IMG/VR virus record: IMGVR_UViG_3300044644_001981
Location: 23,371 to 87,370 of that record
DNA length: 64,000 nucleotides
Strand: one strand, 5' to 3'
DNA from: a virus
A program made the position numbers and the translations under genes. Under the pieces are notes generated by a model. It was not told the origin of the DNA and made no database searches. It saw nothing but the letters and a program-made list of their open reading frames with translations. Below are positions 11,610 to 64,000 of the stretch, in pieces. The stretch's first letter is position 1. Every line of letters begins with the position of its first letter.

Positions 11610-11674
11610 CCAATAAACAAGTCACCGGATTTGATCTGGTGACTGTAAGAATAAAACACAACCCTATTATAACC

Positions 11675-33262: not shown

Positions 33263-33472
33263 ATGGAAAAGTTAAAAGCCTTTCTCAAAGCCCGAATCAT
33301 GGGGAAAAGGCTGTTAACCATAAACCCTAGATCGGTGCAGTCCGAGTTACAGCTTACCCCGTTAGAATTTTGGGAGTCTATGGATCAATTAAAAGCCGAT
33401 CAACAGATTAATTTCTACCAAACTAAAGGTAGTAGCGTAACCATCTATCCCGCAGCTATTCTCCTCGAATGA
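33263..33472 (+). CDS. Hypothetical 69-aa protein, winged-helix-like
   Basis: A 69-residue protein. The order of helices followed by a strand pair (QSELQLTPLEFWESMDQLKADQQINFYQTKG in parts) suggests a small winged helix. It overlaps the zinc-ribbon gene downstream by four bases. A regulatory role is inference. Confidence 0.6.
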   Translation: MEKLKAFLKARIMGKRLLTINPRSVQSELQLTPLEFWESMDQLKADQQINFYQTKGSSVTIYPAAILLE

Positions 33473-33735
33473 ATAACTGCCTAAAATGCCAGATCCCTCT
33501 CAAAAAGAATGGGATGGCTTCTGGGAATAGACAAAAATGGAGATGCCGAGACTGTGGGTTTAGTTTTACCGAGAATCCACAGCTAGGGGGAAGACCTCGG
33601 ATATTTGAAGATCACATCTTGACCACTGCCGAACAAACAGCCCGACACCGGAAAAAGAAAAAGCTCAAGTTAACGGGATTATTGGTGGAGACATTAAAAG
33701 ACAAGGGAACTATGTCAATAATGCAGATAAAGTAA
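33469..33735 (+). CDS. InsA-like zinc-ribbon protein, copy 3
   Basis: An 88-residue protein. CLKC and CRDC pairs with WRCRDCGFSFTENPQLGGRP give the closest match in the window to the IS1 InsA ribbon. The C-terminal half is basic and helical. No IS1 transposase follows, but an IS200/IS605-like end hairpin lies 3 bases beyond the stop. It is translationally coupled to the 69-residue gene. Confidence 0.65.
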   Translation: MNNCLKCQIPLKKNGMASGNRQKWRCRDCGFSFTENPQLGGRPRIFEDHILTTAEQTARHRKKKKLKLTGLLVETLKDKGTMSIMQIK

Positions 33736-48088: not shown

Positions 48089-49648
48089 TCAGTTCCCTTG
48101 CCTAACTACAGAATAGATAAAATCAAACATTTCTGGATCGTTCTTAGCTAGGTAAATAGGGTTCCTGTGCATTAATTCTAATCCCATTGATAAAACCTCT
48201 GTATTATACATATTACTCCCGTACACTTTCCCTATGTAAGGATGTATCCATTTATCAACCTTGGTAACTTCGTAATCTTCGTAATTAAGTGGATGTACAT
48301 CTTTTAATTTTACTATCTCCTCTCCGGCAGTTCTTCTATTATAAAAATTAAGCACCTCTTTGTGTATTAAAGGGGAACGATCCTCTATCCAATGCCCAGC
48401 TTCATGTATTAATGTTGCTTTCTCCGTGGTTCCCATGTCGATAGTCCCCGTTTGCCAGCAACAGCTTCTTTGTCCTTGTTTTATTTCACGAATAGACAAT
48501 GTACTGGTTAACCCTGGAATTTCAATCATTCGAGAAAGTTCTTCTATCCCATCCTGATATTCTTTTTTTCTCTTTTTATCTAAAACTGTATTGTTAGTAT
48601 TGATTTTTGTGGGATTATCCACATAGATTAATTTTCTGGCTTCTTGAAGAATTGCCTTAATTCTTTCGTTCGTCTTGGCTCCAGTGTAGTATTCAATGTT
48701 TTCATTTGTTAAAAATTGAGCTATAACCTTTTTAGGTAAAAATCGGGGTACGGGAGGGGAATTGTTTAAGTCTTCCTGTAATTTTAATAACTGCGCTCTT
48801 TTCCCTTGTGCTTCGATCATCAATGCGTCTCGTCTTCCCTTCCGTTGTTCCAATAAAATATCTAATTCTGCATCTTTAGCCTCTTTCTCCTTTCTTTCTT
48901 TCTCCCATTTCGCTCTAATCTGATCTGCTTTTATTCTAAGTTGTTCTGATATTGTTCTGAACTTCTCATCTACCTCATTAGCTTTTTTGAGACGTTCTTG
49001 TTCCTCTAGCATTACCTGTTTCTGTTTTTCTGATTTCTTTACTTCATATTCTTCCCTTTTTCTTTGTACTTCCTCCCATTCCTTTATTAACAAGGGTTCT
49101 GTTATTTTCTTGAGTTCATCAGCTTTTTTAAGAAATTCTTTTTCTTCTTCGGGTAAAATACCTGGTTTCGTTGATCGTCTTAAATATTTTGCTCGTAATT
49201 CGTTTAATTTAAAAAGCCTTTCCTGAGAGAAATCGTCCTGAGCATTGGCTCTGCAACTTTTCTTGATATTGATACAAATACTTCCACAATTATAGGAAGT
49301 TGGCTTTACACACTGGGCTTTCTCCCTTTTCGCTCCCCCTGCATCAATTCGGTAAGAATAACCTGCTGAGAAGTCTTCCCAATTCTTTAAATCAACACCC
49401 CGACTATCAATTCTAGGGGTGAATGGTTTATAAACAACCGACTTCCTGTTTATCTCAAAACTAAACACACGAGATCTGGTTAAGTCCTTAAACCGCCCTG
49501 TTATCTTTTCATTTTCCAGGGTTCCAGGATCGAAATCTAGCACAATGACCGGAGCATTATAGGCAAATGACATTGACAGAATTTGACCTATTGCCAATCT
49601 CATCTGAGCTTCGGAAGGTGCCATGTTAGGGGCAAAAGATTGAACCAT
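48089..49648 (-). CDS. Cassette effector 1: shared N-domain + zinc metallopeptidase
   Basis: A 519-residue protein. Residues 10-115 are the shared cassette domain (AQMRLAIGQ, FAYNAPV, GRFKD, VFSFEI, YKPF). A Cys-rich module follows at about 110-140 (CVKPTSYNCGSICINIKKSC), then a charged coiled coil (150-290). The C-terminal 150 residues hold a zincin site, His415-Glu416-x-x-His419 in HEAGHWIE, and a later Glu in TEVLSMGLEL that could be the third ligand. Gene position between neck and tail genes suggests a virion protein; delivery into the host is inference. Confidence 0.75.
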   Translation of the reverse strand: MVQSFAPNMAPSEAQMRLAIGQILSMSFAYNAPVIVLDFDPGTLENEKITGRFKDLTRSRVFSFEINRKSVVYKPFTPRIDSRGVDLKNWEDFSAGYSYRIDAGGAKREKAQCVKPTSYNCGSICINIKKSCRANAQDDFSQERLFKLNELRAKYLRRSTKPGILPEEEKEFLKKADELKKITEPLLIKEWEEVQRKREEYEVKKSEKQKQVMLEEQERLKKANEVDEKFRTISEQLRIKADQIRAKWEKERKEKEAKDAELDILLEQRKGRRDALMIEAQGKRAQLLKLQEDLNNSPPVPRFLPKKVIAQFLTNENIEYYTGAKTNERIKAILQEARKLIYVDNPTKINTNNTVLDKKRKKEYQDGIEELSRMIEIPGLTSTLSIREIKQGQRSCCWQTGTIDMGTTEKATLIHEAGHWIEDRSPLIHKEVLNFYNRRTAGEEIVKLKDVHPLNYEDYEVTKVDKWIHPYIGKVYGSNMYNTEVLSMGLELMHRNPIYLAKNDPEMFDFIYSVVRQGN

Positions 49649-49656
49649 GATTTTAC

Positions 49657-49956
49657 TTAATAAACAATTTCAGACTCATCAACAACTTTCCCGTTAATTA
49701 CCAAAGGAGGAGGAGCAATAGGTTGATCCATCACTGTCCCATCAAAGGTTTTTGCTATCTCGGTGGCAATTAACCAATCAGGATCGGGAGTTGCGGGGGA
49801 ATTAAGCCAGAAGAAAGGCGAGTCCGGGTCTATGGCTGCCAATTTCTCCATTGCTAAAACATTGTTCAGGATCGAGGCATAATGGGGCGTTGAGGATGTC
49901 CAAACTCCATTCTCAATAACTGCCACTACACCGTTGATTTTGACGCGATAAGCCAT
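49657..49956 (-). CDS. Hypothetical 99-aa protein between effector genes
   Basis: A 99-residue protein with no cassette domain. It starts with beta strands (YRVKINGVVAVIENGVW) and ends in PPPLVINGKVVDESEIVY. It could be a small tail or adaptor protein, or an immunity-like partner of a neighbour. It is closely spaced with both neighbours. Function unknown. Confidence 0.65.
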   Translation of the reverse strand: MAYRVKINGVVAVIENGVWTSSTPHYASILNNVLAMEKLAAIDPDSPFFWLNSPATPDPDWLIATEIAKTFDGTVMDQPIAPPPLVINGKVVDESEIVY

Positions 49957-49957
49957 G

Positions 49958-51124
49958 TTAACCTCTTCTAACTACCGAATAAATAAAATCAAACATATCG
50001 GGATCTTGTTTAGCAAGTGCGACTGGATTCCTATACATTAATTCTAAACCCATTGAGAGAATTTCCGTTGACTTGTCAGGATAAACTTTTCCCATATAAG
50101 GACGCATCCATTTATCAACCTTTGTTATTTCAGTATCTCTATACGATTTGATTCCGGTTGCGTCTCGCATTTTGACCGCTTTTTCTCCCTTTGTCCTGCG
50201 ATTGTAAAATTCTACAACTTCTTTCTTTATTTCTGGGACGGAGTATTCTATCCAGTGACTTAATTCGTGAATAACTGTACCAGGGTCATCATTCCCCATT
50301 GACACGGTTTTATCTGCATTATTATAATAACTTCTCTTATCTCCCTCTGGCAAGCCTTTGACATTAACCTTACTCGTTAAACCAGGAATTGACACCATTA
50401 AAGACAGTGATTGAATCCCCTCATCCCATCGGGATTTATTCTTTTTATCTTTTACTTCAATGTTAAGATTTGTAGGCAAATCGACTTGAACTAATTTTCT
50501 AGCTTCACTTGAAAACCTTTTGAAGTCTTCTGATGCAGCCTCTAATTCCCTTAATTTACCTTCACTTAAAATATCAGCCAATGGCGGGTTTGTTTTTAAT
50601 AGTTTATCAATTTCTTTCTTTGTTCCTTTTATTAATTTGTTTAAGTATTTCTCTGGCTTTCCATCGTCAATAGCCTTTATAATAGCACTACCTTTGTGTT
50701 TAGAAGGATCAAATTTAGATATAAAATCCTCTGACATTTTATCTAATCGTCCCCTAACTTCTTTCGCTTCTTCTAATAACCTAACTTTTCTTTGTTCTGG
50801 GGTTTCTGGTTTATTTATTGGTTTCTCTTTAGCAAGCGAAGGAATGTCGGGGGTGAAATCATTGATTGACTTTAAGTTATCGACACCAGGAGGAATAATA
50901 GGATTGGATTTAATAGCCTTTTCTTTTGCAGACCTTCTACTAACGGCGGTAACGTAATCAATTCCTATCGCTTTTAGCTTCTCAAGCCTATCCTTTGACC
51001 TAGAATCATTCGGAACTATCCTGCAATTTTTCTTAACATTAATGCAAGATAGACCACAATTATAGGAAGTAGTCTTTACACATTGAGCTTTCTTTTCCCT
51101 CTTGTCTTCTCTATATTTAATCAT
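49958..51124 (-). CDS. Cassette effector 2: Cys module + zinc metallopeptidase, short N-terminus
   Basis: A 388-residue protein. It lacks the 100-residue shared domain and starts almost at the Cys module (CVKTTSYNCGLSCINVKKNC, residues 16-35). A helical linker follows, then a metallopeptidase domain like that of effector 1, with HELSHWIE at about residue 286 and TEILSMGLELMYRNP later. The C-terminal 60 residues (DPDMFDFIYSVVRR) are nearly the same as in effectors 1 and 3. It overlaps effector 3 by four bases. Confidence 0.75.
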   Translation of the reverse strand: MIKYREDKREKKAQCVKTTSYNCGLSCINVKKNCRIVPNDSRSKDRLEKLKAIGIDYVTAVSRRSAKEKAIKSNPIIPPGVDNLKSINDFTPDIPSLAKEKPINKPETPEQRKVRLLEEAKEVRGRLDKMSEDFISKFDPSKHKGSAIIKAIDDGKPEKYLNKLIKGTKKEIDKLLKTNPPLADILSEGKLRELEAASEDFKRFSSEARKLVQVDLPTNLNIEVKDKKNKSRWDEGIQSLSLMVSIPGLTSKVNVKGLPEGDKRSYYNNADKTVSMGNDDPGTVIHELSHWIEYSVPEIKKEVVEFYNRRTKGEKAVKMRDATGIKSYRDTEITKVDKWMRPYMGKVYPDKSTEILSMGLELMYRNPVALAKQDPDMFDFIYSVVRRG

Positions 51125-52221
51125 TTTCTCCTCACAACACTATAAATAAAATCAAACATTTCAGGATCATTCTTGGCTAGATATACCGGATTCCTATACA
51201 TTAATTCCATCCCCATTGATAATATTTCAGAAGCATTTTTATATTCTTTGCCCATATAAGGATTTAACCATTTATCAACTTTTGTAACCTCATCATCTCT
51301 ATAGTTCTTGTTTCCTGTGACTTCGCTCATCTTAACGGTTTTTTCCCCTGCCGTTCGCTTTTCGTAAAAAGATTCAACTTCTTCTCTAATCCCTGGCACT
51401 TTCTCCTCTAGCCAATGACTCATCTCGTGAACTACAACAGCAGGGTCAGGATTCCCCATATAAACATTATTTGTTTTCGGTTTGTAATAGCTTCTCCCTT
51501 TTCTTTCTGGAGGAGCATCAACTATATTAACTGGAGTATCCAGCCCTGGAATTGAGATCATTTTTTGGAATACCTCAACACCTTTTTGATGGGATCTAGG
51601 AGTTCCGGTTTTGACGGATGAATTCAACTTAGTTGGACTATCCACTTCTACCAATTTTCTAGCCTTCTCTAAAAAAGCCTGAGCTTCTTTGTTCGAGGTA
51701 TTAAACACTCTCTCCGCCCTTGCTGATAGCCTCTCAGCCTCTTGTGGGTCTTCTTGCGACAAACCCTTGATTTTCTTACTGTAAAGAAGTTTATTCTTTT
51801 TAAGTTGCCGAACGGGGTTCTCCGATTCAAGTAACGAGGCAGTCCCTTTCTTCGTAACAGATGTTTCGCTAACGCCCTCGTATAATTTCAGCAGTTCCTC
51901 TCGCTTGCTTGCAGCCTCCGCTTTTAGTCGTGCTTTCCTGCGAGCTTGATTGATAATCTTCCTGTCCACTGCCAACTCGGACGCTTCTGTTTTTCTGGCT
52001 TTTTCTACCACGCCAACCAATTTATCGGCCGCGGCTTTTTGCCTTAAAGACCTTGCTGACTTCGATTTTGATTGAGCATAGAATTGAGAGATTTGTTTTA
52101 ACCTCTGAAGACGCGATCGCCCAAAAGATTCAGAAGGGACTTGCCGGCAATTTTTAGAGACGTTAATACAGGCGTTGCCACAGTTATAGGATGTTGGCTT
52201 TTCGCATTTGGGCTTCTTCAT
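51121..52221 (-). CDS. Cassette effector 3: Cys module + zinc metallopeptidase, minimal N-terminus
   Basis: A 366-residue protein that begins directly at the Cys module (CEKPTSYNCGNACINVSKNC, residues 5-24). A basic helical linker follows, then the same peptidase domain with HEMSHWLE near residue 265 and SEILSMGMELMYRNP. A degraded copy of its first 17 codons lies at 57887-57979. Proteins 2 and 3 show that the Cys module alone can head a cassette member. Substrates are unknown. Confidence 0.75.
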   Translation of the reverse strand: MKKPKCEKPTSYNCGNACINVSKNCRQVPSESFGRSRLQRLKQISQFYAQSKSKSARSLRQKAAADKLVGVVEKARKTEASELAVDRKIINQARRKARLKAEAASKREELLKLYEGVSETSVTKKGTASLLESENPVRQLKKNKLLYSKKIKGLSQEDPQEAERLSARAERVFNTSNKEAQAFLEKARKLVEVDSPTKLNSSVKTGTPRSHQKGVEVFQKMISIPGLDTPVNIVDAPPERKGRSYYKPKTNNVYMGNPDPAVVVHEMSHWLEEKVPGIREEVESFYEKRTAGEKTVKMSEVTGNKNYRDDEVTKVDKWLNPYMGKEYKNASEILSMGMELMYRNPVYLAKNDPEMFDFIYSVVRRK

Positions 52222-52250
52222 TTCAGAACATCACAACCGATCTAATTGGT

Positions 52251-52451
52251 TTACTTTATATTGATCTTTCTTTGAGGTACTCCAGAGGTTTTATCTTTAG
52301 ACTTGCCTTCTGCGTTTAACTTGCTTTTCAATGCTTTGAGTGCTTTGAGTTTGCGAGATGGGGCAGCAGATATCCCGTATTCAAGTTCAAGATTATCAAT
52401 TTCATCCATATCTATTAGGATTTCATCGTCTGTTTGAGGTTTGTTATCCAT
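52251..52451 (-). CDS. Small acidic protein in effector block
   Basis: A 66-residue protein with an acidic N-terminal half (DDEILIDMDEIDNLELE) and a basic C-terminal half (KLKALKALKSKL). Its leader (CATGTTTTTATCCTTAAATA on the plus strand) is the same as that of effector 4 at 53892, a further sign of duplication. Possibly a partner or chaperone; function unknown. Confidence 0.6.
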   Translation of the reverse strand: MDNKPQTDDEILIDMDEIDNLELEYGISAAPSRKLKALKALKSKLNAEGKSKDKTSGVPQRKINIK

Positions 52452-52494
52452 GTTTTTATCCTTAAATAGTGCCTATATTTTATCTTATTATATT

Positions 52495-53892
52495 TTATTC
52501 TAGTTTGGTTTTTTTCTCGTATTCCTTGACAAATGCCTTGGCTGATTTTTCTGACAGATGAAAATATTCAAGTTCATATCCATATTTAGCACCTTTTTCA
52601 ATTCGTTTTTTAAACCCAACTGACTCATAAAACGGCACAGCACTTTCTAATGACTCTAGTTTTATTTTCCCTTTAAATCCTCTTTTTACACTCTCTTGAA
52701 TAGCATGATATATGATTTGTTTCCCCACTCCTTTTGTATTGGTTATTATATTTGATGGATTAGTACCTAAAAATTCTATATACATAGATTCTTTAGATTT
52801 GTCATTTCCCGTAGTAAAGAAGCCTTGAGTTTTTCCAGATTCGTCCTTTAAAAAAAACGCATCTTGTAATCCTGCCTCGACTTCTGTTGCCCAAGCTAGA
52901 CCCTCCGCCACACCATTTGAGTCATCAACTAAATCTTTTTTTGCCTCCAGAACATCTCGCTCAATCACCTCATTGTCATACTTTATAAGTTTACCATACG
53001 GGGACTGCTTTAATGCTTCCCCCGTACTATCAACGTACTTACTGGATTTATTAATCCATTCTTTTGCCGTTTTCTTTATCTCTTTTACGGATGCAATAGA
53101 AGGCGTTAATTTACCAACTTTTCGCACTGGGGATTGTTGCTGTTTCTGTTTTTCTAGCTGTTTTTCTAGCTGTTTTTGTTTTTCTAGCTGTTTTTGTTTT
53201 TCTAGCTCTTTTTGTCTTTCTAGCTCTTTTTGTCTTTCTAGCTCCTTTTGTTTCTCTGGCTCTCTTTGTTTTTCTCTTACACCCCTGAGTGCAAGAGTAG
53301 TCACCTTATATTTTTTGAGAAGTTTAGCCTCCCTCTCCCTCTCTTTGTCAGGATTTAAACTATTTAATTGATCTAAATACAGTTTTTTTAACTTGAGTAA
53401 CTTATCAATCCGTTCCTCCGAAAGTTCATCGTCAGCATTAGCACTGCAATTTTTATTGATATTGATACAGATACTTCCACAATTGTAGGATGTAGGCTTT
53501 ACACACTGGGCTTTCTTCCTTTTTACTCCCCCTGTATCAAAACGATAGGCATAACCTGATCGGTAGGAGTAACCTGCCGAGAAGTCTTCCCATGCCTCAA
53601 CATTCAAACCCGTGCTGTCAATTCGAGCCACGAAGGGTCGAGCCACGAAAGGTTTATAAACAACCGACTTCCTGTTTATCTCAAAACTAAACACACGAGA
53701 TCTAATGGCGTCCTTAAACCGCCCTGTTATCTTATCGCCGTTACTATCCCCTAAATCAAAATCAAGTACCACCACAGGCGAATTATAGGCAAATGGGAGC
53801 GATAACGTTTGAGCGATCGCGAGTTTCATTTGAGCCTCGGAAACCATAGTATTTGGATTAATTTTCACTTCCATAGGAGGTTTGTTGTTCAT
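52495..53892 (-). CDS. Cassette effector 4: shared N-domain + GNAT acetyltransferase
   Basis: A 465-residue protein. The shared N-domain (residues 10-110) is nearly identical to that of effector 1 and is followed by the Cys module (CVKPTSYNCGSICININKNC). Residues 205-250 are a run of EKQKELERQ-like repeats. The C-terminal 150 residues are a GNAT N-acetyltransferase with the acetyl-CoA loop in KGVGKQIIYHAIQES and the VPFYESVGFKKR end motif. GNATs acetylate amines such as protein lysines, tRNA or drugs; the target is unknown. A GNAT domain of the same type ends effector 5. Confidence 0.75.
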   Translation of the reverse strand: MNNKPPMEVKINPNTMVSEAQMKLAIAQTLSLPFAYNSPVVVLDFDLGDSNGDKITGRFKDAIRSRVFSFEINRKSVVYKPFVARPFVARIDSTGLNVEAWEDFSAGYSYRSGYAYRFDTGGVKRKKAQCVKPTSYNCGSICININKNCSANADDELSEERIDKLLKLKKLYLDQLNSLNPDKEREREAKLLKKYKVTTLALRGVREKQREPEKQKELERQKELERQKELEKQKQLEKQKQLEKQLEKQKQQQSPVRKVGKLTPSIASVKEIKKTAKEWINKSSKYVDSTGEALKQSPYGKLIKYDNEVIERDVLEAKKDLVDDSNGVAEGLAWATEVEAGLQDAFFLKDESGKTQGFFTTGNDKSKESMYIEFLGTNPSNIITNTKGVGKQIIYHAIQESVKRGFKGKIKLESLESAVPFYESVGFKKRIEKGAKYGYELEYFHLSEKSAKAFVKEYEKKTKLE

Positions 53893-53925
53893 GTTTTTAT
53901 CCTTAAATAGTGCCTATATTTTATC

Positions 53926-55929
53926 TTATTTTAGTTTTTTCTCGTATTCCTTGATAAATGCGTTAGCTGATTCTTCTGATAAGTCAAAATATGAATCACC
54001 TTCTTTGTCTATTGTTTCCTTGAAGCCTATTGTTTTGTAAAACGGCACAGCACCTTCTAATGCCTGTAGTTTTATCTTCCCTTTAAGCCCTCTTTTTCTA
54101 CTCTCTTGAATAGCATGGTACATGATTTCCTTGCCAACTCCTTTTTTCTCGTTTATTACATTACTTGGATTAGAGCCAAGAAATTCTATATACATAGAAT
54201 CCTTCTTCGATGCTTCTTTCCCTATACAAAAAAATCCTTGCGGTTTTCCAGACCTGTCATTAAGGGATACCACATCAACTTCCTCTGACTTGTCTACATC
54301 CTCCCCCTCTCCATAGATTTTCAGCGCTGTAGTAACAATAAAAGATTCAGTGACAATATCTTTTTTCCCTAACACATATTCTTGCTTAGGAAAGGAACCC
54401 GGAGGTAATTGTTCAGCTTTTTTTACAAGATTGACAAAATCTATGGCTGTCTTAGCCCATTCACCTCCTATTTTTGCTTGATCTGCCTTGGACATTACAG
54501 ATGGCTGGAGCTTGGTCTTAGCGGGATTTGTGTTTTTTTCGGGTTCTTCGGCTTCTATTCCTGGTTTTGCTGTAGTTGTTTTGGAGGATTTAGATACTTT
54601 TTTCTGATTGATTGATACTTTTTCTTGCAAAGGATCAACCTCTTCAACATCTACATACATAACACCCCCTTCTTCTCTAACGCTTTTAACTTTGTGTTTG
54701 GCATTCTTTGGAACAATAACCTCAGACTCTATTTTTCCTAACCAACTTAGGTTAAAAATAGACACACCTGACTTGTTGTTGACCGACTTAATTACAACAG
54801 GCACTCTATCTAGATCATCTTCTTCTATATCTGTTGCAAACCCTTTAGCAACTTCAAGTTCAGAACTCCAGGATGCGTGGGCGTTTTGATTGTCTAAAAC
54901 ACCATCTTTATCCCCTTTCAGCCAATCCTCCATCTCTTTTTTGTTGTCAAAAGTTATTCCACGGTAAACCTCCCCTTTGTATGGGGTTAAGTTTTTGATA
55001 TAATTATCAATAAGTGTCGCTCGTTCATTGACACGTCCTTCTTTTTGATCTTTTCTTATTTCTTCATACCCGCCTCCAGTCCAGTCATTAATAGCCTCAA
55101 CAGTATCTTGAGCTTCTTTTAATGTTATTTGCTTCCCGTTTTTAGTAGCAAGATTATAATACTCCTGGGCATTTCTGGGCATCCCTTCGTGTGACCCGTC
55201 TCCTGTCAAACCTTCTTCTTCTGACCTTGTAGTTTTAATCTGACTCCCGAACGCTATCCCTTTGGTTTTCATGTAAATAGCAACACTGTCTTTTATTTTT
55301 TCTAATTGAGCACCGCTAACCCCCGCTTGTTTAGCTGTTTGCTCTAGTTTATAAACAGGAACTCCTGCTTTCTTTGCCAAACCTTCTACTTGGGCAATGG
55401 AAAGAGTTTTTGTTTTTTCTGCTACAGGTTTTTCCGTTTTAGATTTAGGAGTTTCTTTGGTTTTGGGTGTTGTTTTTGCATAATCTTTCCCGATTCCCTC
55501 TAGCTTTTTAAGCCCATCTTTTATTGTGGGATCATCGGTTTTGCTATTGCAGCTTTTCCTAATGTTAATACAGGCTGCACCACAATTATACGCTGTCGGT
55601 TTAACACACTGTGGCTTCTTATTACCTCCTATCCCCGCATCTACCCGATAGGAGTAGCCACTAGAGAATTCCTCCCAGTCATCTACGCTATCCATCCGTC
55701 CTGGGGTGTAAGGTTTAAAGGTTACTGACTGCCCTTTGATATTAAATGAAAAAATACGGGGACGGGTTGCATCCTTGAATTTGCCTTCAAACTCCCCTTG
55801 ATCATTTACCGAAAAATCCAACATCACCACCGGAGCATTATAGGCAAATGGTTGAGACAGAGTTTGGGCGATCGCCAACTTCATCTGTGGCTCGGTTGGC
55901 GTGGCATCTTTTCTAGTCGTTGAACTCAT
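53926..55929 (-). CDS. Cassette effector 5: shared N-domain + ADP-ribosyltransferase + GNAT
   Basis: A 667-residue protein. Shared N-domain (10-115), Cys module (CVKPTAYNCGAACINIRKSC) and a helical domain at about 175-215 (TLSIAQVEGLAKKAGVP), also found in effector 6b at 58095. Then comes an ADP-ribosyltransferase with Arg323 in VYRGI, the SWS variant of the STS motif in AHASWSS, and the ExE motif in IESEVIVP. A GNAT domain closes the protein (KGVGKEIMYHAIQES, VPFYKTIGF). Two enzymes in one chain suggest a fused toxin. Domain calls are by motif. Confidence 0.78.
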   Translation of the reverse strand: MSSTTRKDATPTEPQMKLAIAQTLSQPFAYNAPVVMLDFSVNDQGEFEGKFKDATRPRIFSFNIKGQSVTFKPYTPGRMDSVDDWEEFSSGYSYRVDAGIGGNKKPQCVKPTAYNCGAACINIRKSCNSKTDDPTIKDGLKKLEGIGKDYAKTTPKTKETPKSKTEKPVAEKTKTLSIAQVEGLAKKAGVPVYKLEQTAKQAGVSGAQLEKIKDSVAIYMKTKGIAFGSQIKTTRSEEEGLTGDGSHEGMPRNAQEYYNLATKNGKQITLKEAQDTVEAINDWTGGGYEEIRKDQKEGRVNERATLIDNYIKNLTPYKGEVYRGITFDNKKEMEDWLKGDKDGVLDNQNAHASWSSELEVAKGFATDIEEDDLDRVPVVIKSVNNKSGVSIFNLSWLGKIESEVIVPKNAKHKVKSVREEGGVMYVDVEEVDPLQEKVSINQKKVSKSSKTTTAKPGIEAEEPEKNTNPAKTKLQPSVMSKADQAKIGGEWAKTAIDFVNLVKKAEQLPPGSFPKQEYVLGKKDIVTESFIVTTALKIYGEGEDVDKSEEVDVVSLNDRSGKPQGFFCIGKEASKKDSMYIEFLGSNPSNVINEKKGVGKEIMYHAIQESRKRGLKGKIKLQALEGAVPFYKTIGFKETIDKEGDSYFDLSEESANAFIKEYEKKLK

Positions 55930-55940
55930 GGTTAAATCTC

Positions 55941-57890
55941 CTATACTTCCTCAGCTTCAACAATAATCCGTCCGTTTTCTTCCTTGACACTTTTAACTCG
56001 ATGGCGAGTGTCTTTTAGCACCATAACTTCGTCTTCTTCTTTGATCCTGCTCAAATTCCTAATAGACACACCTGATTTATTAATGGTTTTAATGACGACG
56101 GGATACCTTTTTTCCTCAATAAAGAAATCGTCCGAAAAATTCTTTGCTGTTTTAAGGCTAGATGACCAAGAGGCGTGAGCACCTTGATTATCTAGCACCC
56201 CATCCTTGTCGCCTTTAGTCCAGTTTAAAGCCTCCTCTTTGGTTGCAAAATGAATCCCTCGGTAAACTTCGCCTTCGTATGGGGTTGAGTTCCTGACATA
56301 ATTAGAAATCCGATTGGCATCCTCGTTTTCTTCCCCTGCTTTTTGATCGACTCGGATGTCAGTGGCATCCCTTGTCCATTTATAGATGGCTGTAGTGGTG
56401 GCTGTTGCCTCTTTCTTAGAAATATTTACCCCTGCTTTTTCCAGTGCTTCACGATACTCATCGGGGGTTGAGGGCATGGATTCATGGTCGCCCTTCCCTA
56501 CTAAATTAAGGTTTTTAGGTTTTTCTTCGGGTTGTTTAACCGCCTTTTCCTCGGATTCTTTTTGGGTTTTAGTTATTTCTGGTGATGGTTCAGGCGTTTT
56601 CTTTTCCTTGTTAGGAGAAACTTCTTCTGTCTCAACGATCAAAACACCATCTTCGTACACAACCTTTTTAACCCGATGGCGAGTGTCTTTGATGACCACT
56701 ACCTCATCTTCCGTATCAAAGGTGCTTAAATTTTTGATAGAGGCACCTGACTTATTAATTGTTTTGATAATGATAGGTTGTGATGTCTCATCGAACGCAT
56801 TGTCAACAGCAAATTCTCTCGCTTTATCCCAATTAGAAGTCCAAGATGCGTGGGCATTTTGATTGTCCAATATTCCGTCTTTGTCTCCTTTTGCCCACTC
56901 CAGTGCTTCTTCTGTTGATTCAAGGGAGATACCTCGGTAGATTTCACCTTTGAATGGCGTTGAACTCTTGACGTAATCAGTGATCCGGTCGGCAACGAGG
57001 CTGTATTTCCCTGCTTTTTGAGATTCTCTAATATAAGAGGCATCTTCTGTCCACTCTTTAACGGCTCCGGTAATCTTTATAGCATCGTCATAAGAGATGG
57101 GATTACCCGATGCTTTCATTGCTTCAAAGTACCCGTATGCGTCGCCAGGAACGGACTCATGATCCCCCTTCCCTACTAAATTAAGAGGCTTGGGTTCGTT
57201 TTCAAGTTCTTTAAGGGTTTCTGTTTGATCTTCACTCTTTACAGCTATTTTAGCAGCTTTCTTCCCTTCTTCAAAGTCAGATTCTTTCCCTTTTTTGCTA
57301 GGGGGAATTTCCTTTATTGTTTCTGGAATTTTATCTATTTCTGGTGGTTTTTCTACCTCTTTCTTGGTTTTTGTAGTTGATTTAGGATTGGATTTCTTGG
57401 CTTCTTTAGCGTAATCAATACCAGCAGCTTTCAATTTCTCTAAACGATCCTTTGACTGAGCGTCATCGGGGTTTGATTTACAATTATTATTAATATTTAT
57501 ACAGGCTTTCCCGCAATTATATGCGGTGGGTTTAACGCATTGGGGTTTCTTTTTGTCTCCTGCCTTGCCTTTTGCCTTAACTCCTTTAGCTTTAGCATCA
57601 AAACGGAAGGAATAGCCTAAAGAAAACTCCTCCCATTGTTCTACTGCATCGCCCGAATCCATCCGTCCTGGGGTGTAAGGTTTGAAGTTAACGGTATTTC
57701 CATCTAACTCAAAATCAAACACCCTCGGACGGGCAGAATCCTTAAATCTCCCAGATATTTTACCCGTGTCATCTACCTTAAAGTCCAACACGTCCACTGG
57801 GGCGTTATAGGCAAAAGGAAGAGCAAGAGTCTGGGCGATCGCTGCTTGCATTTGTGCTTTTGTTGGGGCTGTTTTAGTCTCTATGCTCAT
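55941..57890 (-). CDS. Cassette effector 6: shared N-domain + two ADP-ribosyltransferase domains
   Basis: A 649-residue protein. Shared N-domain, Cys module (CVKPTAYNCGKACININNNC), then two ADP-ribosyltransferase domains in tandem at roughly 240-435 and 465-649. Each has an Arg (IYRGI, VYRGI), AHASWTS or AHASWSS and an ExE motif (TEDEVVV, EEDEVMV). The two are about as alike as paralogues, so they arose by internal duplication. The ExE form usually marks arginine-specific transfer. Its start overlaps the stop of a 30-codon cassette remnant. Confidence 0.8.
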   Translation of the reverse strand: MSIETKTAPTKAQMQAAIAQTLALPFAYNAPVDVLDFKVDDTGKISGRFKDSARPRVFDFELDGNTVNFKPYTPGRMDSGDAVEQWEEFSLGYSFRFDAKAKGVKAKGKAGDKKKPQCVKPTAYNCGKACININNNCKSNPDDAQSKDRLEKLKAAGIDYAKEAKKSNPKSTTKTKKEVEKPPEIDKIPETIKEIPPSKKGKESDFEEGKKAAKIAVKSEDQTETLKELENEPKPLNLVGKGDHESVPGDAYGYFEAMKASGNPISYDDAIKITGAVKEWTEDASYIRESQKAGKYSLVADRITDYVKSSTPFKGEIYRGISLESTEEALEWAKGDKDGILDNQNAHASWTSNWDKAREFAVDNAFDETSQPIIIKTINKSGASIKNLSTFDTEDEVVVIKDTRHRVKKVVYEDGVLIVETEEVSPNKEKKTPEPSPEITKTQKESEEKAVKQPEEKPKNLNLVGKGDHESMPSTPDEYREALEKAGVNISKKEATATTTAIYKWTRDATDIRVDQKAGEENEDANRISNYVRNSTPYEGEVYRGIHFATKEEALNWTKGDKDGVLDNQGAHASWSSSLKTAKNFSDDFFIEEKRYPVVIKTINKSGVSIRNLSRIKEEDEVMVLKDTRHRVKSVKEENGRIIVEAEEV

Positions 57891-57979
57891 GTTTTTGTTC
57901 TTCCTTTTGCTTCAGAATTATCAAGACCTGTATTGCCGCAATTATAGGATGTTAGCTTTTCGCATTTGGGCTTCTTCAT
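57887..57979 (-). pseudogene. Remnant of a cassette gene (Cys-module start only)
   Basis: A 30-codon frame, MKKPKCEKLTSYNCGNTG..., whose DNA from about 57945 to 58000 is nearly identical to the start of effector 3 (52180-52240), including the untranslated part upstream. It then loses the module and stops, overlapping the next ATG. It marks a past duplication or recombination between cassette genes. Confidence 0.7.
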
Positions 57980-58094
57980 TTCAGAACATCACCATTAAGT
58001 TTATTGGGTTACTTTTTTGTATTGATTTTTCTTCGAGATAAAGCATAATTAATAGTAGGAATTAACTATGTTTTATTTGGGATTGAGTCGTCGC

Positions 58095-59579
58095 TTAAAT
58101 TTCTTCTACTTCGACATATATTGTGCTATCTTTTTTTGTGACATTCTTAACCTTATGTTTTGCACTTTTTGGTACAACAACTTCGGACACCCACTCATAA
58201 CCCTCTGGGGTAAGGTTTTGAATAGATGCACCCGTTTTATTTATTGCCTTAAGCACAACACGTTGTCCAGCATCACCGGCTCCTCTAAAACCAGCAAATT
58301 TTTCGGCAGTCTTGGGATCAGTAGTCCATGAAGCATGGGCACCTTGATTGTCTAATACCCCATCTTTGTCCCCTTTTAGCCAATTCATAGCTTCATCTTC
58401 TGAATCAAAATTCATCCCCCTCTGTATCTCTCCCTTGTATGGGGTCGAATTTGCAAGATATTTAGAAATTAAATTTGCTCCTACGTTTGGTCTATTTTCT
58501 TTTTGTGATCTTCTAATTGCTTCGGAATTATAAACCCACGATCTGACATATTTAACAGTCGCCTTAGCCTCGCCTTCTGTTATTTCAATTCCTTTCTTCC
58601 TGGCCATCTCATAGTATTCTTGTGGGTTTTTAGGTGTACTTTCATGAGTCCCATCACCAATCAAATTTGTTAGCTCAGGCTTCTTGGTCTCTGGTTCAGG
58701 TTTTTTAGTTTCTTCCTTTGGTTTAGATGCTTCTTTCTTTGGTTTAGATGCTTCTTTCTCTGGAGATTGAGTGGAACTTGGCGCTGTCGTTTTTTGGGAT
58801 TTTATGTAGTTAGCAACACCATCTTTTATTTTTGATAATTGAGTGCCACTAACCCCGGCTTTCGTTGCAGCTTCTTCTAGTCTAAGAACACTAACTCCTG
58901 CTTTCTTTGCCAAACCTTCTATCTGAGCAATGGAAAGAGTTTTTGCTTTTTCTTTCGTCTGTTTTTCTGCTGGTTTTTTCGTTTCAGCATTAGGATCTGT
59001 TTTAGCTGTTTTAGTTACTTCTGATGCCTTGGGTTTTTCTGTTACTTTGGTTGTTTTTGCATAATCCTTCCCTACTTCCTTTAATTTACTAAGCCTCTCC
59101 TGTGAATTACTATCTTCTGTGCTGGATTTGCAGCTATTCTTAATATTGATACAGGCTTTCCCACAGTTATAGGCTGTCGGCTTAACGCATTGAGGCTTTT
59201 TTTTGCCACCTACTCCCGCATCAACACGGAAGCCATACCCTGCTGAAAATGCCTCCCATTCTTGGACATCTTCCTCTGATTCTAAGCTGTCCATTTTGCC
59301 AGGTTTATAAGGCTTATAGGCTACGGACTCCCCATCTAGGGTAAAGGAAAACACCCGTGGACGTGCCGCATCTTTAAATACTCCGGTAATATTGCCATTC
59401 TCGGCAACATCAAATTTAAGCACAACAACTGGGGCGTTGTAAACAAAATCCATTGACAAGGTTTGGGCAATAAGTAACCTCATTTGAGCTTCGGTTGGTG
59501 CAGTACCTCCGCCACCATCCCCAACTAATACTTCATCTTCGTCAACACGGAACAAAGAACTTGGTTTTGTTTTTAACAT
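58095..59579 (-). CDS. Cassette effector 7: shared N-domain + ADP-ribosyltransferase
   Basis: A 494-residue protein. An extra N-terminal peptide (SSLFRVDEDEVLVGDGGGG) precedes the shared domain; the Cys module is CVKPTAYNCGKACINIKNSC. The helical domain TLSIAQIEGLAKKAGVS follows, then a KPKEE-rich linker and one ADP-ribosyltransferase domain with IQRGM, AHASWTT and YEWVSEVVVP. Here the residue two before the catalytic Glu is Val, not Glu, so the ExE motif is incomplete and the acceptor may differ. It is the first cassette gene after the neck genes. Confidence 0.78.
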   Translation of the reverse strand: MLKTKPSSLFRVDEDEVLVGDGGGGTAPTEAQMRLLIAQTLSMDFVYNAPVVVLKFDVAENGNITGVFKDAARPRVFSFTLDGESVAYKPYKPGKMDSLESEEDVQEWEAFSAGYGFRVDAGVGGKKKPQCVKPTAYNCGKACINIKNSCKSSTEDSNSQERLSKLKEVGKDYAKTTKVTEKPKASEVTKTAKTDPNAETKKPAEKQTKEKAKTLSIAQIEGLAKKAGVSVLRLEEAATKAGVSGTQLSKIKDGVANYIKSQKTTAPSSTQSPEKEASKPKKEASKPKEETKKPEPETKKPELTNLIGDGTHESTPKNPQEYYEMARKKGIEITEGEAKATVKYVRSWVYNSEAIRRSQKENRPNVGANLISKYLANSTPYKGEIQRGMNFDSEDEAMNWLKGDKDGVLDNQGAHASWTTDPKTAEKFAGFRGAGDAGQRVVLKAINKTGASIQNLTPEGYEWVSEVVVPKSAKHKVKNVTKKDSTIYVEVEEI

Positions 59580-59601
59580 GATTTTACCTTTTATAAATAG
59601 A

Positions 59602-59695
59602 AACCTTGTGAGTTGATCACAAGTAAAAACCTTGTGAGTTGATCACAAGTAAAAACCTTGTGAGTTAATCACAAGTAAAAACCTTGTGAGCTAAT
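59602..59695. repeat. Tandem 26-bp hairpin repeats before the effector block
   Basis: Three full copies and one partial of a 26-bp unit containing CTTGTGA, loop GTTGA, TCACAAG. The last copy is the 3' end of the 139-residue gene. Each copy can form its own 7-bp hairpin. They may slow or process the late mRNA, or reflect slippage at the recombination-prone cassette border. Confidence 0.8.
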
Positions 59696-60088
59696 CTTCT
59701 CAACTAACTCCATGTCCCACGTCACGATATTTTTAGTTAGTGAGACTAAGTTACAAACAACTCCATCGGGAGGGTAAAATGTGGTGTCTGCTCCGACAAT
59801 ATAGTCAACCCCCTCACCCTTCAATTGTTCTTCTAAATAACGCCGTGAAATCCCTTTGACGGAATAGGATTTAGTTATTCCCTCCACTGAGCTTAGATTT
59901 TCAATCCCTTCCTTACTTGGGAATTGATCTTGAATAACCGGAGATGGGGTAATCTCCAGATACTCGTAATCATTGCCCAATCTTGTGCGAACGACAAGGC
60001 TTCGAATATTGGGATTGCCAAATCCCCCCGCGAGAGGGGAGATCCGGTCTCTTAGGGCTATCATTTGCTCAACAAAGGATTGACTCAT
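59669..60088 (-). CDS. Neck/head-tail joining region protein
   Basis: A 139-residue alpha/beta protein with no clear family. It is coupled by ATGA to the gene upstream and is the last of the head-neck run before the effector block. Position suggests a head completion or tail-joining protein. Its final codons lie inside the first hairpin repeat. Confidence 0.6.
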   Translation of the reverse strand: MSQSFVEQMIALRDRISPLAGGFGNPNIRSLVVRTRLGNDYEYLEITPSPVIQDQFPSKEGIENLSSVEGITKSYSVKGISRRYLEEQLKGEGVDYIVGADTTFYPPDGVVCNLVSLTKNIVTWDMELVEKISSQGFYL

Positions 60089-61087: not shown

Positions 61088-62041
61088 TTATTCGGGTAAT
61101 ACTACAATGTGCATGGAGAATGGGCGTTTGAGGTCAATTCCCCCAAACTTAAACTTGGCACCACGCCAGAAAGAATCAACACCAATGGGACGAGTATCAG
61201 TCCACTTTAATGGTTGATAAATCTTAGCAGAGACTTTTTTGGGATCTCGACGGAAAGCCTGAATAAAGCGGGTAGGAGCCAAACCAATCGACTCTAAATA
61301 TTCGGGAGCCATCTCGGACACCACACCGACTTCTTTGATGTTGGAGTTGACTTTTAAGAAGTGTTCTAACACTGTGCGATCTAAGGCAGATGTACCAATT
61401 TGAATGATATCCGAGGAGAGGTGTTCGTAAGTTTCCGAATCCATTAACAATGTGTCAGGCTTCTCTCGGTTATTGGTCAACCGAGTCGGAGCATTAACAC
61501 AATCATTTAACACGCTCAGCTTTTGCTGTGATGTTGCAGACCCGTTTAAAGGGAAGGGAGCATAAGACCGCAGGGCTTGGGGGTGATTTAGAAACCCTGG
61601 CATCCCTGTTTCTAAATCTCCGTTTGCCACCAACTGATTGATTTTTTGTTGTGCGGCTTCTTGAATTGTCCAGATTTTGTCCTCCTCAATGCTCTCGCCC
61701 ATTCGACTGACAGCCGCGATATCATCCTCGGAAACGCTATAACCTTGTCCCCATTTATGGATCGGCATCTTCATCTCGCCATAGACCAGTTCCACTTCGG
61801 GAAGGTCTGTGGTGTAGTTTCGGATTAATTTGAACTGCCCGACGTGACGGAGCCACCGATATCCCCAGGTTTTTGCCCAGGGCTTGTTTTGGATGTTGAG
61901 AGGGCAAATGACTCCAGCAGCGAAAGGATAGTCCGCAAGATCGAACTCCTTATCTACTTGAGCTTCTAAGTCCATCAGGGTGCCAAAGAACGTCCCGATT
62001 TCATCAGCATCCAACCTTGTAGTCCCGGAAAAGTTCATCAT
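61088..62041 (-). CDS. Major capsid protein, DUF2184 family
   Basis: A 317-residue protein matching DUF2184 capsid proteins: an N-terminal arm (TTRLDADEIG), VICPLN and KTWGYRW segments, GQGYSVSEDDIAAVSRMG, and the DTLLMDSETYEHL/SALDRTVLEHFL part, ending in RRDPKKVSAKIYQPLKW. The fold of this family is HK97-like. It follows cement and protease/scaffold genes, the usual order. The RLDA near its start resembles motifs in the effectors and scaffold. Confidence 0.8.
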   Translation of the reverse strand: MMNFSGTTRLDADEIGTFFGTLMDLEAQVDKEFDLADYPFAAGVICPLNIQNKPWAKTWGYRWLRHVGQFKLIRNYTTDLPEVELVYGEMKMPIHKWGQGYSVSEDDIAAVSRMGESIEEDKIWTIQEAAQQKINQLVANGDLETGMPGFLNHPQALRSYAPFPLNGSATSQQKLSVLNDCVNAPTRLTNNREKPDTLLMDSETYEHLSSDIIQIGTSALDRTVLEHFLKVNSNIKEVGVVSEMAPEYLESIGLAPTRFIQAFRRDPKKVSAKIYQPLKWTDTRPIGVDSFWRGAKFKFGGIDLKRPFSMHIVVLPE

Positions 62042-62060: not shown

Positions 62061-62891
62061 TTAAGGAACATTGAAGCCGATTAAAACGCACACCGCGCCA
62101 GTGCTAGTGACCACAGGGGAACATTTGAACTCAGCCTTCGCGGAGATATTAATTGTACCACTTGTCACTTTTGTTGCTTTCCCCTCGTGTCCCGCAGCAA
62201 CAGAGACGTAGACGGCATCATTGATTGTGATATCCGTCTCGACACATTCAACCCAGATCCCTGACGATTCCCCCGTCCGGTCAACCACGTCCATCACATC
62301 CTGATAGGGGTAAGTTGTCCCACTATAGTTTGCACCTTGATAAATCAAAGGTTGCATTTCGATGTCTTTGACGATTCGAGTAATCCCTAGGATTACGTCA
62401 GTGGTAGCAGTAGGAAGTCCTGCAACTTTGGGGTCGGTTTCGGTGTTTGCTCTGGCAACAAACCGACCGAATGGTACGGGGAGAGGAATAATCATCGCCG
62501 TGGTTACAGTTGCCGTTAAACTAGCACCAGTAACTACCAGGATGTTCTCGATACCATATTCCAGTGCCGTGAACAGCACGTTATTCCCACTAACACTTGC
62601 AATCCCCCGTCGCCCAAAAGCAGGGTTTACTCGGATTGCATTCAATAAACCAGCTTGCAGTTCCGCTTGAGTGGCACTAGCATCGGTTGTAAAACGTGCC
62701 GTGCCTAGTCCGTTGTTTAACCTGACGGTATATACAGTGCTAGAAGCAGGGGAGGCAGGAATCGCCAGAGTCCAGACCTCTTTAACAGCATTCTTTACAG
62801 AAACAAGGGCTTTGACTCTCGGAAAATTAATAGATCCCTCGCCCATGCCAGGAGTCGCCCGATCAAATTGAAGATTGTAGTTGTACCGCAT
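62061..62891 (-). CDS. Capsid cement (gp24-like) protein
   Basis: A 276-residue protein. The part from PFGRFVARANTE through VILGITRIV, GIWVECVETDITINDAVYV and AVCVLIGFNVP matches gp24-like structural cement proteins that decorate or lock the capsid. A beta-rich insert of about 90 residues (35-140, IPASPASSTVYTVRLNNG) lies in the N-terminal half and could be a surface Ig-like domain. Its ATG shares a base with the upstream stop. Confidence 0.75.
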   Translation of the reverse strand: MRYNYNLQFDRATPGMGEGSINFPRVKALVSVKNAVKEVWTLAIPASPASSTVYTVRLNNGLGTARFTTDASATQAELQAGLLNAIRVNPAFGRRGIASVSGNNVLFTALEYGIENILVVTGASLTATVTTAMIIPLPVPFGRFVARANTETDPKVAGLPTATTDVILGITRIVKDIEMQPLIYQGANYSGTTYPYQDVMDVVDRTGESSGIWVECVETDITINDAVYVSVAAGHEGKATKVTSGTINISAKAEFKCSPVVTSTGAVCVLIGFNVP

Positions 62892-64000
62892 TATCTAGTA
62901 ACCCCCATGCGTGTTTTTCCTATCGTTAAAGGCTGCTTATAGGCGTGCACCCGTCGTCTTTCCCCTTCGGTGAGTTCATCTCCGTGGGTAGATTGAGCAG
63001 GTCTTTTGAGCATCGAATCAAGGCGATGGGAGAACTCCTCTGAGTCTCCATCGTCTCCATCGTCTCTATCTTCTCTATCTTCTTCCTCCTCGTCATCCCC
63101 TTCTTCTTTATCACCTGGATCGGTGGGGGAAGAATCGTAATTCTCCTGAACGTAGGCAAAAACCCCGTCTACATAAGAATCGGATCGGAACGTCAAGTCC
63201 ATATTGGGTTCGATTTCAGCTAACAAAGTGCGTTTGATGTCGCTAGTAGAGAAGCTACTATCAAACCGAGCGTCAGAGAACCCTGGCAACAAACTGTCGG
63301 CTTCCTTCCATATCGCCAAAAGATCCCCGACCGAATCACCCCGACAAGCACTCTCATCTTCGTCGTTGCTATCAACACGAGGCTTGGACTTTTTTTTCTT
63401 TCTGGAAGTCATAGTTTCTTCTTCCTCTGCAACATCCCATTCTTCCATCATTTCTTCTTCTTCATTGTCCTCCTCTTCCATCATTTCTTCATCTTCGGGA
63501 ACGGGAGGCATCATTTTCTTTTTGCCTCCATCAACACGGACGTACTGCCCCATGTCATTCCGGTAATAACCTAATTCACCAAGGACATTATCGGCATTGT
63601 CTACGATGATCTCTAGGTTATCTAACCGGAACTGGTAATTTTCCCGTGCGGCTTCTAGCTTCCGGTTCTCCCGACTCGTAGTATCAAACCGTGTAACAAG
63701 CGAATCGTGGCGTTCCTTTAATTCTTTCAATTCACGGAATCGAGTACCGCTAATGGAAGCGAAAGATTCAGGGATTCCTGAATACTCAACTCCATCGCAT
63801 CTAACTATTGCCATACGCTGTTCATTATCTCCATTATCATTGGTTTTGTTAGGGTTGCTAGGGTTTTCGATGACTTGCCCTGCGACAGCTTGCCCTGCGA
63901 CAGCTTGCCCTGCGACAGCTTGCCCTGCGACAGCTTGCCCTGCGACAGCTTGCCCTGCGACAGCTTGCCCTGCGACAGCTTGCCCTGCGACAGCTTGCCC
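62891..64000 (-). CDS. DUF2213-type prohead protease/scaffold (C-terminal part)
   Basis: The frame is open to the window edge, so the gene starts beyond 64000; an ATG at 63814 is only internal or a second start. The visible part has about eight GQAVA repeats, then DGVEYSG, a coiled coil (RFRELKELKERHDSLVTRF), a very acidic Met/Glu stretch, and basic ends. This is the C-terminal scaffold half of DUF2213 proteins, whose N-terminal half is a protease. R-x-D-S motifs (PRVDS, ARFDS, HRLDS) are frequent here. Confidence 0.7.
   Translation of the reverse strand, partial: GQAVAGQAVAGQAVAGQAVAGQAVAGQAVAGQAVAGQAVAGQVIENPSNPNKTNDNGDNEQRMAIVRCDGVEYSGIPESFASISGTRFRELKELKERHDSLVTRFDTTSRENRKLEAARENYQFRLDNLEIIVDNADNVLGELGYYRNDMGQYVRVDGGKKKMMPPVPEDEEMMEEEDNEEEEMMEEWDVAEEEETMTSRKKKKSKPRVDSNDEDESACRGDSVGDLLAIWKEADSLLPGFSDARFDSSFSTSDIKRTLLAEIEPNMDLTFRSDSYVDGVFAYVQENYDSSPTDPGDKEEGDDEEEEDREDRDDGDDGDSEEFSHRLDSMLKRPAQSTHGDELTEGERRRVHAYKQPLTIGKTRMGVTR
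63874..64000 (-). repeat. 15-bp tandem repeat in the scaffold gene
   Basis: Eight full perfect copies of CTTGCCCTGCGACAG and part of a ninth, running off the window. On the minus strand it encodes GQAVA in frame. The perfection suggests recent expansion. An assembly collapse of the true copy number is possible. Confidence 0.92.

Follow-up and report, generated by a model that had tools for sequence, protein, structure and literature searches.

The internal proteins IPI-III and Alt of phage T4 are packaged in the head, processed by gp21 and ejected, the internal proteins carrying targeting propeptides of 10-19 residues (PMC9026906); gp24 of T4 loses 10 residues (PMC9958956), and head proteins of phage SPN3US lose up to 254 residues (PMC10052503). 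As described in the passages considered here, the MuF polymorphic toxins are phage-encoded, head-linked proteins with variable C-terminal enzymes, ART and metallopeptidase among them (PMC5576092), and ART and zincin domains in a virion-gene context are also known from the polyvalent proteins (PMC5512222). Here we analyze a cassette of seven genes and one gene remnant (48089-59579, minus strand) located in what is called below the window, that is, the whole stretch of 64,000 nucleotides (nt) under study, which comprises bases 23371-87370 of the 87,370-base IMG/VR virus record IMGVR_UViG_3300044644_001981. The source virus infects filamentous cyanobacteria and is a relative of the Planktothrix phage PaV-LD, its closest cultured relative found, with a major capsid protein 98.4% identical. 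The cassette proteins, referred to as cargo, combine a front part (the "head": an N-terminal domain, or N-domain, a linker and a short Cys module) with enzyme tails, and in the best-supported reading of their sequences they are probably packed in the phage head, with an N-terminal propeptide being removed.

By analogy, the cassette is best read as working like the T4 internal proteins and Alt combined with polymorphic toxins. Its likeness to the former lies in an N-terminal propeptide removed by a protease (predicted in the cargo), the presence of ART, the several proteins involved and the turnover between relatives (PMC9026906); a folded domain of about 80-100 amino acids (aa) plus the Cys module, however, stands here against the 10-19 residues of T4, and the cargo tails are swapped enzymes, the packaging of which is predicted from sequence. 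Long N-terminal propeptides of head proteins (111-254 aa) are shared with the SPN3US ejection proteins, among which are the paralogues gp53 and gp54, the former carrying several protease motifs in its propeptide; compared by description, the SPN3US proteins differ in their cleavage motif, and polymorphic enzymes are not described in the relevant passages (PMC10052503). Unlike the MuF toxins described in PMC5576092, the cargo genes form several paralogues side by side, and none of the seven cargo proteins matched the MuF domain PF04233 in Pfam up to an expectation value (E) of 1, for which reason the cassette is not classed as a MuF toxin. The polyvalent proteins are approached by two cargo proteins with more than one enzyme per polypeptide (AG and AA, see below), but here one conserved front is joined to one to three enzymes, with the members distributed over separate neighboring genes (PMC5512222). 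The Pfam and PHROG scans agree with the statement of an earlier note on this DNA that the shared head belongs neither to MuF nor to any named Alt family: no family named after Alt or internal proteins appeared among the Pfam, PHROG and NCBIfam matches, direct alignment to Alt not having been made. The NCBIfam and PADLOC scans yielded nothing of use. What is new here is the R-x-D-[SA] sites flanking the linker between the N-domain and the Cys module; a description of this rule or of the cassette was not found in the literature searched, subscription journals being mostly outside it.

One head with recombined enzyme tails

The gene calls, strand and coordinates of the earlier note proved correct, and its list of tails (three metallopeptidases, GNAT, ART+GNAT, ART+ART and ART) was upheld by Pfam, blastp, motifs and two structure models; its counts are to be corrected, the Cys module being found in seven intact genes instead of six, apart from the remnant near 57946, and the N-domain in five instead of four (48089, 52495, 53926, 55941 and 58095). 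All of the following features lie on the minus strand. A1 (58095-59579, 494 aa) consists of the N-domain, the Cys module (59130-59189) and ART; AA (55941-57890, 649 aa) of the N-domain, the Cys module (57480-57539) and two ARTs; AG (53926-55929, 667 aa) of the N-domain, the Cys module (55549-55608), ART and GNAT; and G1 (52495-53892, 465 aa) of the N-domain, the Cys module (53446-53505) and GNAT. In M3 (51121-52221, 366 aa) and M2 (49958-51124, 388 aa), both devoid of the N-domain, the Cys module (52147-52206 and 51023-51082, respectively) is joined to a metallopeptidase with the motif HEMSH and HELSH, respectively, and M1 (48089-49648, 519 aa) has the N-domain, the Cys module (49253-49312), a long coiled coil and a zincin-like metallopeptidase (HEAGH). 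Since the N-domain is missing from two of the seven members, no part other than the Cys module is shared by all of them. Two or more effector domains per polypeptide thus occur in two of the seven proteins, AG (ART+GNAT) and AA (ART+ART), and up to three ARTs are found in relatives. In PaV-LD, the homologues are ORF079R for AA (80% identity), ORF080R for M3 (71%) and ORF081R for M2 (50%), the last one bearing the GenBank label 'virion structural protein', and A1 corresponds to ORF078R in its head (84%), the tail being different (25%). As for the ORFs (open reading frames) shorter than 150 aa, putative immunity genes in the comparison with the MuF toxins, they lie downstream of two of the seven cargo genes, G1 (66 aa, 52251-52451) and M2 (99 aa, 49657-49956), and each of the other five is followed by a cargo gene or by a 174-aa gene.

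The invariant pattern of the Cys module is C-x7-C-x3-C-x6-C with YNCG and CIN, predicted as three short strands. The N-domain, roughly 100 residues long, is predicted as one helix and four strands, and the linker behind it is predicted to be disordered (residues 79-111 in M1 and 78-106 in AG), yet contains invariant residues. In blastp, the N-domain heads match each other inside the window with E of 6e-42 or better and the PaV-LD heads with 8e-31 or better, a similarity which, judging by these alignments, is not due to chance. The ratio of nonsynonymous to synonymous substitution rates (dN/dS) was 0.08-0.20 across five head pairs and 0.11-0.34 across seven tail pairs (dS above 1.5 in 5 of the 12; one tail pair, A1 versus ORF078, non-homologous), which indicates that both heads and tails are under purifying selection. 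AlphaFold models, run with alignments (33 and 28 sequences, selected by hand) on two full proteins, M1 and AG, had a mean predicted local distance difference test score (pLDDT) of 71.7 and 76.0 and a predicted template modeling score (pTM) of 0.43 and 0.37, respectively, the domains being mostly confident and their overall arrangement uncertain. The VIA fold listing for M1 hardly probed the N-domain. A Foldseek search of M1 against BFVD gave 14 matches with E up to 0.001 (residue ranges not displayed). Of these, six are G9BW entries, which we take to be PaV-LD proteins, and three come from Nodularia phages; a head-morphogenesis entry is among the remainder. The PHROG profiles phrog_16619 'minor head protein' and phrog_33618 match members from the window and from PaV-LD; we infer that the name 'minor head protein' fits a member with MuF and ART from phage P-SS2 and was carried over to the other members.

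Among the tails, ART PF01129 was above its Pfam cut-off in AA, and GNAT models passed theirs in AG and remained narrowly below it in G1. For the ARTs of AG and A1 and for the three metallopeptidases there is no comparable Pfam match, their assignment being based on mutual blastp similarity, motifs and the fold of the two modeled proteins. Structure prediction, which the earlier note had proposed for each tail, was run on these two and bears out the ART fold of AG: its ART part aligns with 4xzj at a VIA Z-score of 15.4 (root-mean-square deviation (rmsd) 3.6, 176 aligned residues). In 40 distinct ART domains, the SW-type S-T-S motif is present in all 40, E-[VM] in 34 and a narrow [YQ]RG in 24. 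For the M1 tail, the best VIA rows were of the lethal-factor type (1pwu_B, Z 8.9, rmsd 3.4, 136 aligned, with the chance level of the tool typically at 7-8), followed by aminopeptidases and thermolysin-type zincins, and Foldseek against the PDB detected nothing at E 0.001. HExxH is found in 21 of the 22 distinct metallopeptidase domains, the exception being a 101-aa fragment; by this motif, together with a fold match only slightly above the chance level, the M1 tail appears to be a zincin. Searches gave no conclusive identity for the tails of PaV-LD ORF061, ORF065 and ORF078 and for most tails of long relatives. From the enzyme types, the tails would act on the host, a shared fold in itself revealing no target.

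Collecting family members with a head profile, as the earlier note had suggested, yielded 45 loci on 39 viral contigs; the search of cellular genome contigs yielded none, as none of its 32 pattern matches was confirmed. Counting PaV-LD and the window, the head is matched by 120 ORFs, of which 85 are complete and distinct. The combination of N-domain and Cys module is followed in these 85 by ART (13), ART+ART (9), three ARTs (2), ART+GNAT (3), GNAT (5), metallopeptidase (7) and other or no tails (28); the Cys module alone, by metallopeptidase (15) and ART (2); and one has only the N-domain. The PaV-LD set comprises ORF061, 065, 078 and 079 with the N-domain and the module, 080, 081 and 085 with the module only, ORF083 with the N-domain only, and 062 and 066 as lone ARTs. 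Both orphan heads and orphan tails exist among the relatives.

The exchange of tails can be followed at the DNA level. In one relative (L013), the third-slot gene (L013:3897-5312) is 95-100% identical to AG from 200 nt upstream to approximately nt 340 (compared in 60-nt steps), and past this point 95-100% identical to the A1 tail; the crossover falls in the Cys module of AG (nt 322-381). The first-slot gene of the same relative joins the head of A1 (94% at the aa level) to a tail like that of PaV-LD ORF078, switching at about nt 400. Where the DNA of two heads agreed to at least 92% (119 pairs), the tails are below 70% identical in 75 pairs, at 70-90% in 14 and at 90% or above in 30, and 42 of the 75 change points fall in the interval from -90 to +209 nt relative to the first Cys codon. 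These counts are based on 68 distinct full-head genes with only 142 pairs passing a shared-14-mer filter; the pairs are not independent, gaps were scored as differences, and truncated heads enter into 8 of the 75. The crossover and the 75 of 119 pairs demonstrate the polymorphism claimed in the earlier note, one head with recombined swappable enzyme tails. The same turnover of tails between near-identical relatives tells against the cargo being structural or assembly proteins whose metallopeptidase and ART tails work in the virion (for instance, in capsid processing) and not on the host. This reading could invoke the label of the M2 homologue in PaV-LD; considering that PaV-LD encodes its own separate head maturation protease, ORF071, and that the repertoire of ART, GNAT and lipase-like domains (the latter in a phage discussed below) better fits host targets, we regard it as very improbable.

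The remnant (57933-58015, minus strand) is a broken copy of 83 nt, 87% identical to the M3 leader and gene start as far as YNCG. Broken module starts adjoining a matching cargo gene are also found in at least three other viral records (G001:C1:54617-54709, G003:C1:38303-38380 and G004:C1:13615-13680), so the scar is old or recurrent.

Protease-type motifs in cargo and head proteins

R-x-D-[SA] sites are situated on both sides of the disordered linker, between the N-domain and the Cys module. The predicted protease sites are, all on the minus strand, RMDS (55687-55698, the first of two at the linker) and RVDA (55636-55647, ahead of the Cys module) in AG, and RIDS (49403-49414) and RIDA (49340-49351) in M1. 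In 54 distinct heads, [RK]-x-D-S is present upstream in 51, and the 30 aa ahead of the Cys module contain R-x-D-[AT] in 49 and strictly R-x-D-[SA] in 43. The number of R-x-D-[SA] motifs per cargo gene is three in M1 and AG, two in AA, one in G1 and A1, and none in M2 and M3. In the protease/scaffold gene (62891-63814, minus strand), which corresponds to the rear half (the scaffold part) of a head maturation protease family, the motif occurs 6 times versus 0.40 expected, and in the major capsid protein (gene 61088-62041, minus strand) once, at residues 9-12 (R9-L-D-A12, 62006-62017); the 33 non-late ORFs of the window combined contain 5 versus 2.9 expected.

The motif had been noticed by eye beforehand in the cargo linkers, in ORF071 and the capsid protein of PaV-LD, and in the portal and modules of the Aphanizomenon phage CL131; phages S-CBS4 and TLS had not been seen before the motif test. 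In six capsid, protease and portal proteins of PaV-LD and CL131, R-x-D-[SA] ranked first of 353 X.Y[SA] patterns (353 of 400 kept, those with an expectation of 0.2 or less being dropped), with 19 occurrences versus 2.1 expected and a background of 3 versus 2.2. Of the control patterns, D.R[SA] occurred 3 times versus 2.1, R.E[SA] 0 versus 2.2, and K.D[SA], mildly raised, 6 versus 2.8. Omission of ORF071 left 10 versus 1.6, and the CL131 set alone gave 8 versus 1.3. Five of the seven Cys modules of CL131 are preceded by R-x-D-[SA] within 18 residues, which was reached in 0 of 20,000 shuffles. The protease of S-CBS4, a phage picked by protease and capsid homology, contains 5 motifs versus 0.41 expected.

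An anchor for the position of the cut is provided by TLS, the mature capsid protein of which begins with ASDMGIW according to Edman sequencing (PMC11447400). In the TLS capsid sequence this stretch is preceded by QLRGAKND, which puts the cut behind residue 27, at the end of K-N-D; the removal of 45 residues surmised by the authors from an alignment (PMC11447400) may therefore need revision to 27. BLAST places R9-M-D-A of CL131 in register with K25-N-D-A of TLS, and R9-L-D-A of the window with K23-A-D-A of the T1-like phage BrunoManser (77% identical to TLS), in which the K form mostly occurs. The TLS protease (L067:12912-14021) contains 9 [RK].D[SA] versus 0.8 expected, which suggests, at the level of sequence, that T1-like phages follow the same cut rule. 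Among five sequences compared, this protease proved homologous to its counterparts in CL131 (E 6e-19) and PaV-LD (1e-7); T1-like proteases matched CL131 gp038 in the whole phage collection at about 3e-14. The motif is also repeated across the scaffold part of the protease genes, as would be expected of a prohead-entry or scaffold-docking signal with which cargo is packaged uncut; the TLS capsid cut exactly at the motif makes this unlikely, in our view.

Probable packaging in the phage head and its alternatives

All genes from 63814 down to 42243 are on the minus strand, in the order of protease/scaffold gene, capsid gene, small head-completion-type genes, cargo genes, 174-aa gene and 1682-aa gene, the product of the last being 85% identical across 1454 aa to the annotated tape measure protein of PaV-LD. 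The cargo genes are thus co-directional with the late genes and lie ahead of the tape measure gene, the slot which is also occupied by the PaV-LD set and, in CL131 (100 of 113 kb searched), by four genes with seven Cys modules. This position directly before the tape measure gene, as well as the tape-measure size of CL131 gp048, might point to cargo residing in the tail tube or neck and being ejected from there, with R-x-D-[SA] as a mere binding motif. The motif, however, is common to the capsid, protease/scaffold and portal proteins but is not shared by the small genes of the head-completion/neck type, it occurs once in the tape measure protein versus 0.58 expected, and homologous heads in Nodularia phages belong to the head module; a tail or neck location has, in our estimation, little chance of being correct. 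The two paralogous Nodularia heads, 37% identical, sit between the portal and prohead protease genes on proteins labeled DUF3626 and ParB/sulfiredoxin (the latter identified by protein length). A two-sequence Nodularia profile aligned by hhalign with the N-domain and module of the PaV-LD-type head at 96% (E 3.4e-9), a single Nodularia sequence at 48%; with CL131 gp045, only the Cys part of the head aligned, at 11%. A search with the CL131-type Cys module found at least one viral locus, on the contig of L058.

CL131 gp048 matches alpha/beta-hydrolase/lipase Pfam models, and the tail of gp047 may be read as similar to it, without a Pfam match. The gp048 gene (L056:42705-48140) is a single gene of 1811 aa with four Cys modules, three of them with R-x-D-[SA] at most 18 residues before, and its product is possibly a cargo polyprotein. 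In gp012 (L056:8800-12981), a single protein unites portal, inorganic-pyrophosphatase and MuF domains; a motif tally over 46 of the 49 coding sequences in the first 50 kb of CL131 gave it four R-x-D-[SA] sites, of which one separates the portal from the pyrophosphatase domain and one lies past MuF. The virions of CL131 were reported to contain 23 proteins by liquid chromatography-tandem mass spectrometry (PMC6293099).

Homologues of the tails are fused to head proteins elsewhere. The ART homologue ORF030 of P-SS2 has 1500 aa with MuF and zeta-toxin Pfam domains and was detected in virion mass spectrometry with a mean of 96.5 peptides, under the authors' name of major capsid protein (PMC2784084). 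MuF proteins of the phages Lactococcus 62503, Flavobacterium pippi8-1 and Bacillus BpsS-36 end in the metallopeptidase, these being the ones examined besides PaV-LD among 66 matching records, and the tail of L032:3959-5593 matches the end of the portal family phrog_21 (E 9e-57). Such fusions, one of them detected by mass spectrometry, together with the protease-type sites in common with capsid proteins, speak against late effectors that stay in the cytoplasm and are never packaged, with the shared head as a regulatory or folding domain. In favor of such effectors are the two members without the N-domain and the fact that packaging is deduced from sequence only; on balance, we find them improbable.

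The favored reading, packaging in the phage head, would imply the following steps. The full-length cargo protein would enter the prohead via the N-domain, and the maturation protease would cut R-x-D|[SA] on both sides of the linker, as in the major capsid protein. The N-domain would thereby be removed, and the Cys module with the enzyme would stay in the capsid to be ejected with the DNA, after which the ART, GNAT and metallopeptidase domains (lipase-like ones in CL131) would modify host targets or defenses. Recombination, the crossovers of which often lie in or near the Cys-module DNA, would keep the enzyme set changing. The virion location put forward in the earlier note thus gains support from the motif shared with capsid and protease, from the tail homologues fused to MuF or portal and from the P-SS2 spectra. 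Its other proposal, the N-domain as a targeting head, is plausible, and the domain looks, from its sequence context, like a removable propeptide; the two of seven members devoid of it do not fit.

Several observations weigh against this reading. M2, M3 and PaV-LD ORF080 and ORF081 have neither the N-domain nor a site, so that neither is needed for every member. The Nodularia heads are devoid of R-x-D-[SA], one having KSDS inside the N-domain, and in Nodularia phage 2AV2 the motif was not enriched. The capsid N-terminus of S-CBS4 has RMDE, and Erwinia phage phiEt88, with a homologous protease (2 versus 0.36 expected), has no site at its capsid N-terminus. Gene-by-gene significance of the motif among the cargo is limited to M1, AG and AA, and homologous heads that retain it do not provide independent evidence. 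The CL131-type Cys motif is also present in one unrelated protein from a bacterial metagenome-assembled genome, so this short motif is not by itself specific to phages. Finally, the change points of the swapped tails are spread, and those outside the -90 to +209 nt interval include ones deep in the tails.

Other features of the window and meaning of the cassette

A 26-nt tandem repeat is located at 59595-59696, directly upstream of the first cargo gene. In the non-structural part of the window, three small genes (11639-11905, 16646-16951 and 33469-33735) are scattered, the starts of which resemble each other by eye as zinc ribbons. The 558-aa ORF at 9012-10688 is presumably a TnpB-type transposon protein, judging by its start. 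Of two neighboring ORFs at locus L007, the first (L007:9642-10250) is thymidylate-kinase-like by eye, and the second (10259-10498) resembles its C-terminal part, an apparent duplication.

A broader proposal, which we put forward tentatively and with less confidence than packaging itself, is that the cassette belongs to a MuF-independent modular protein-injection system of cyanophages. In this system, propeptide, protease site and Cys module would make up an interchangeable cargo tag, the Cys-module DNA would serve as the recombination joint, and the putative CL131 polyprotein of four tag-plus-enzyme units would be cut apart in the prohead. The packaging reading predicts exact cut sites. If true, it would provide a sequence rule to recognize packed and injected phage proteins, in a group of phages that has many such genes annotated as 'hypothetical', and it would unite the protease-processed internal head proteins with polymorphic, swappable effector tails, which are separate in the literature seen. 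In more phages, [RK]-x-D|[SA] as the rule of the DUF2213-type maturation protease may aid the annotation of capsid maturation.

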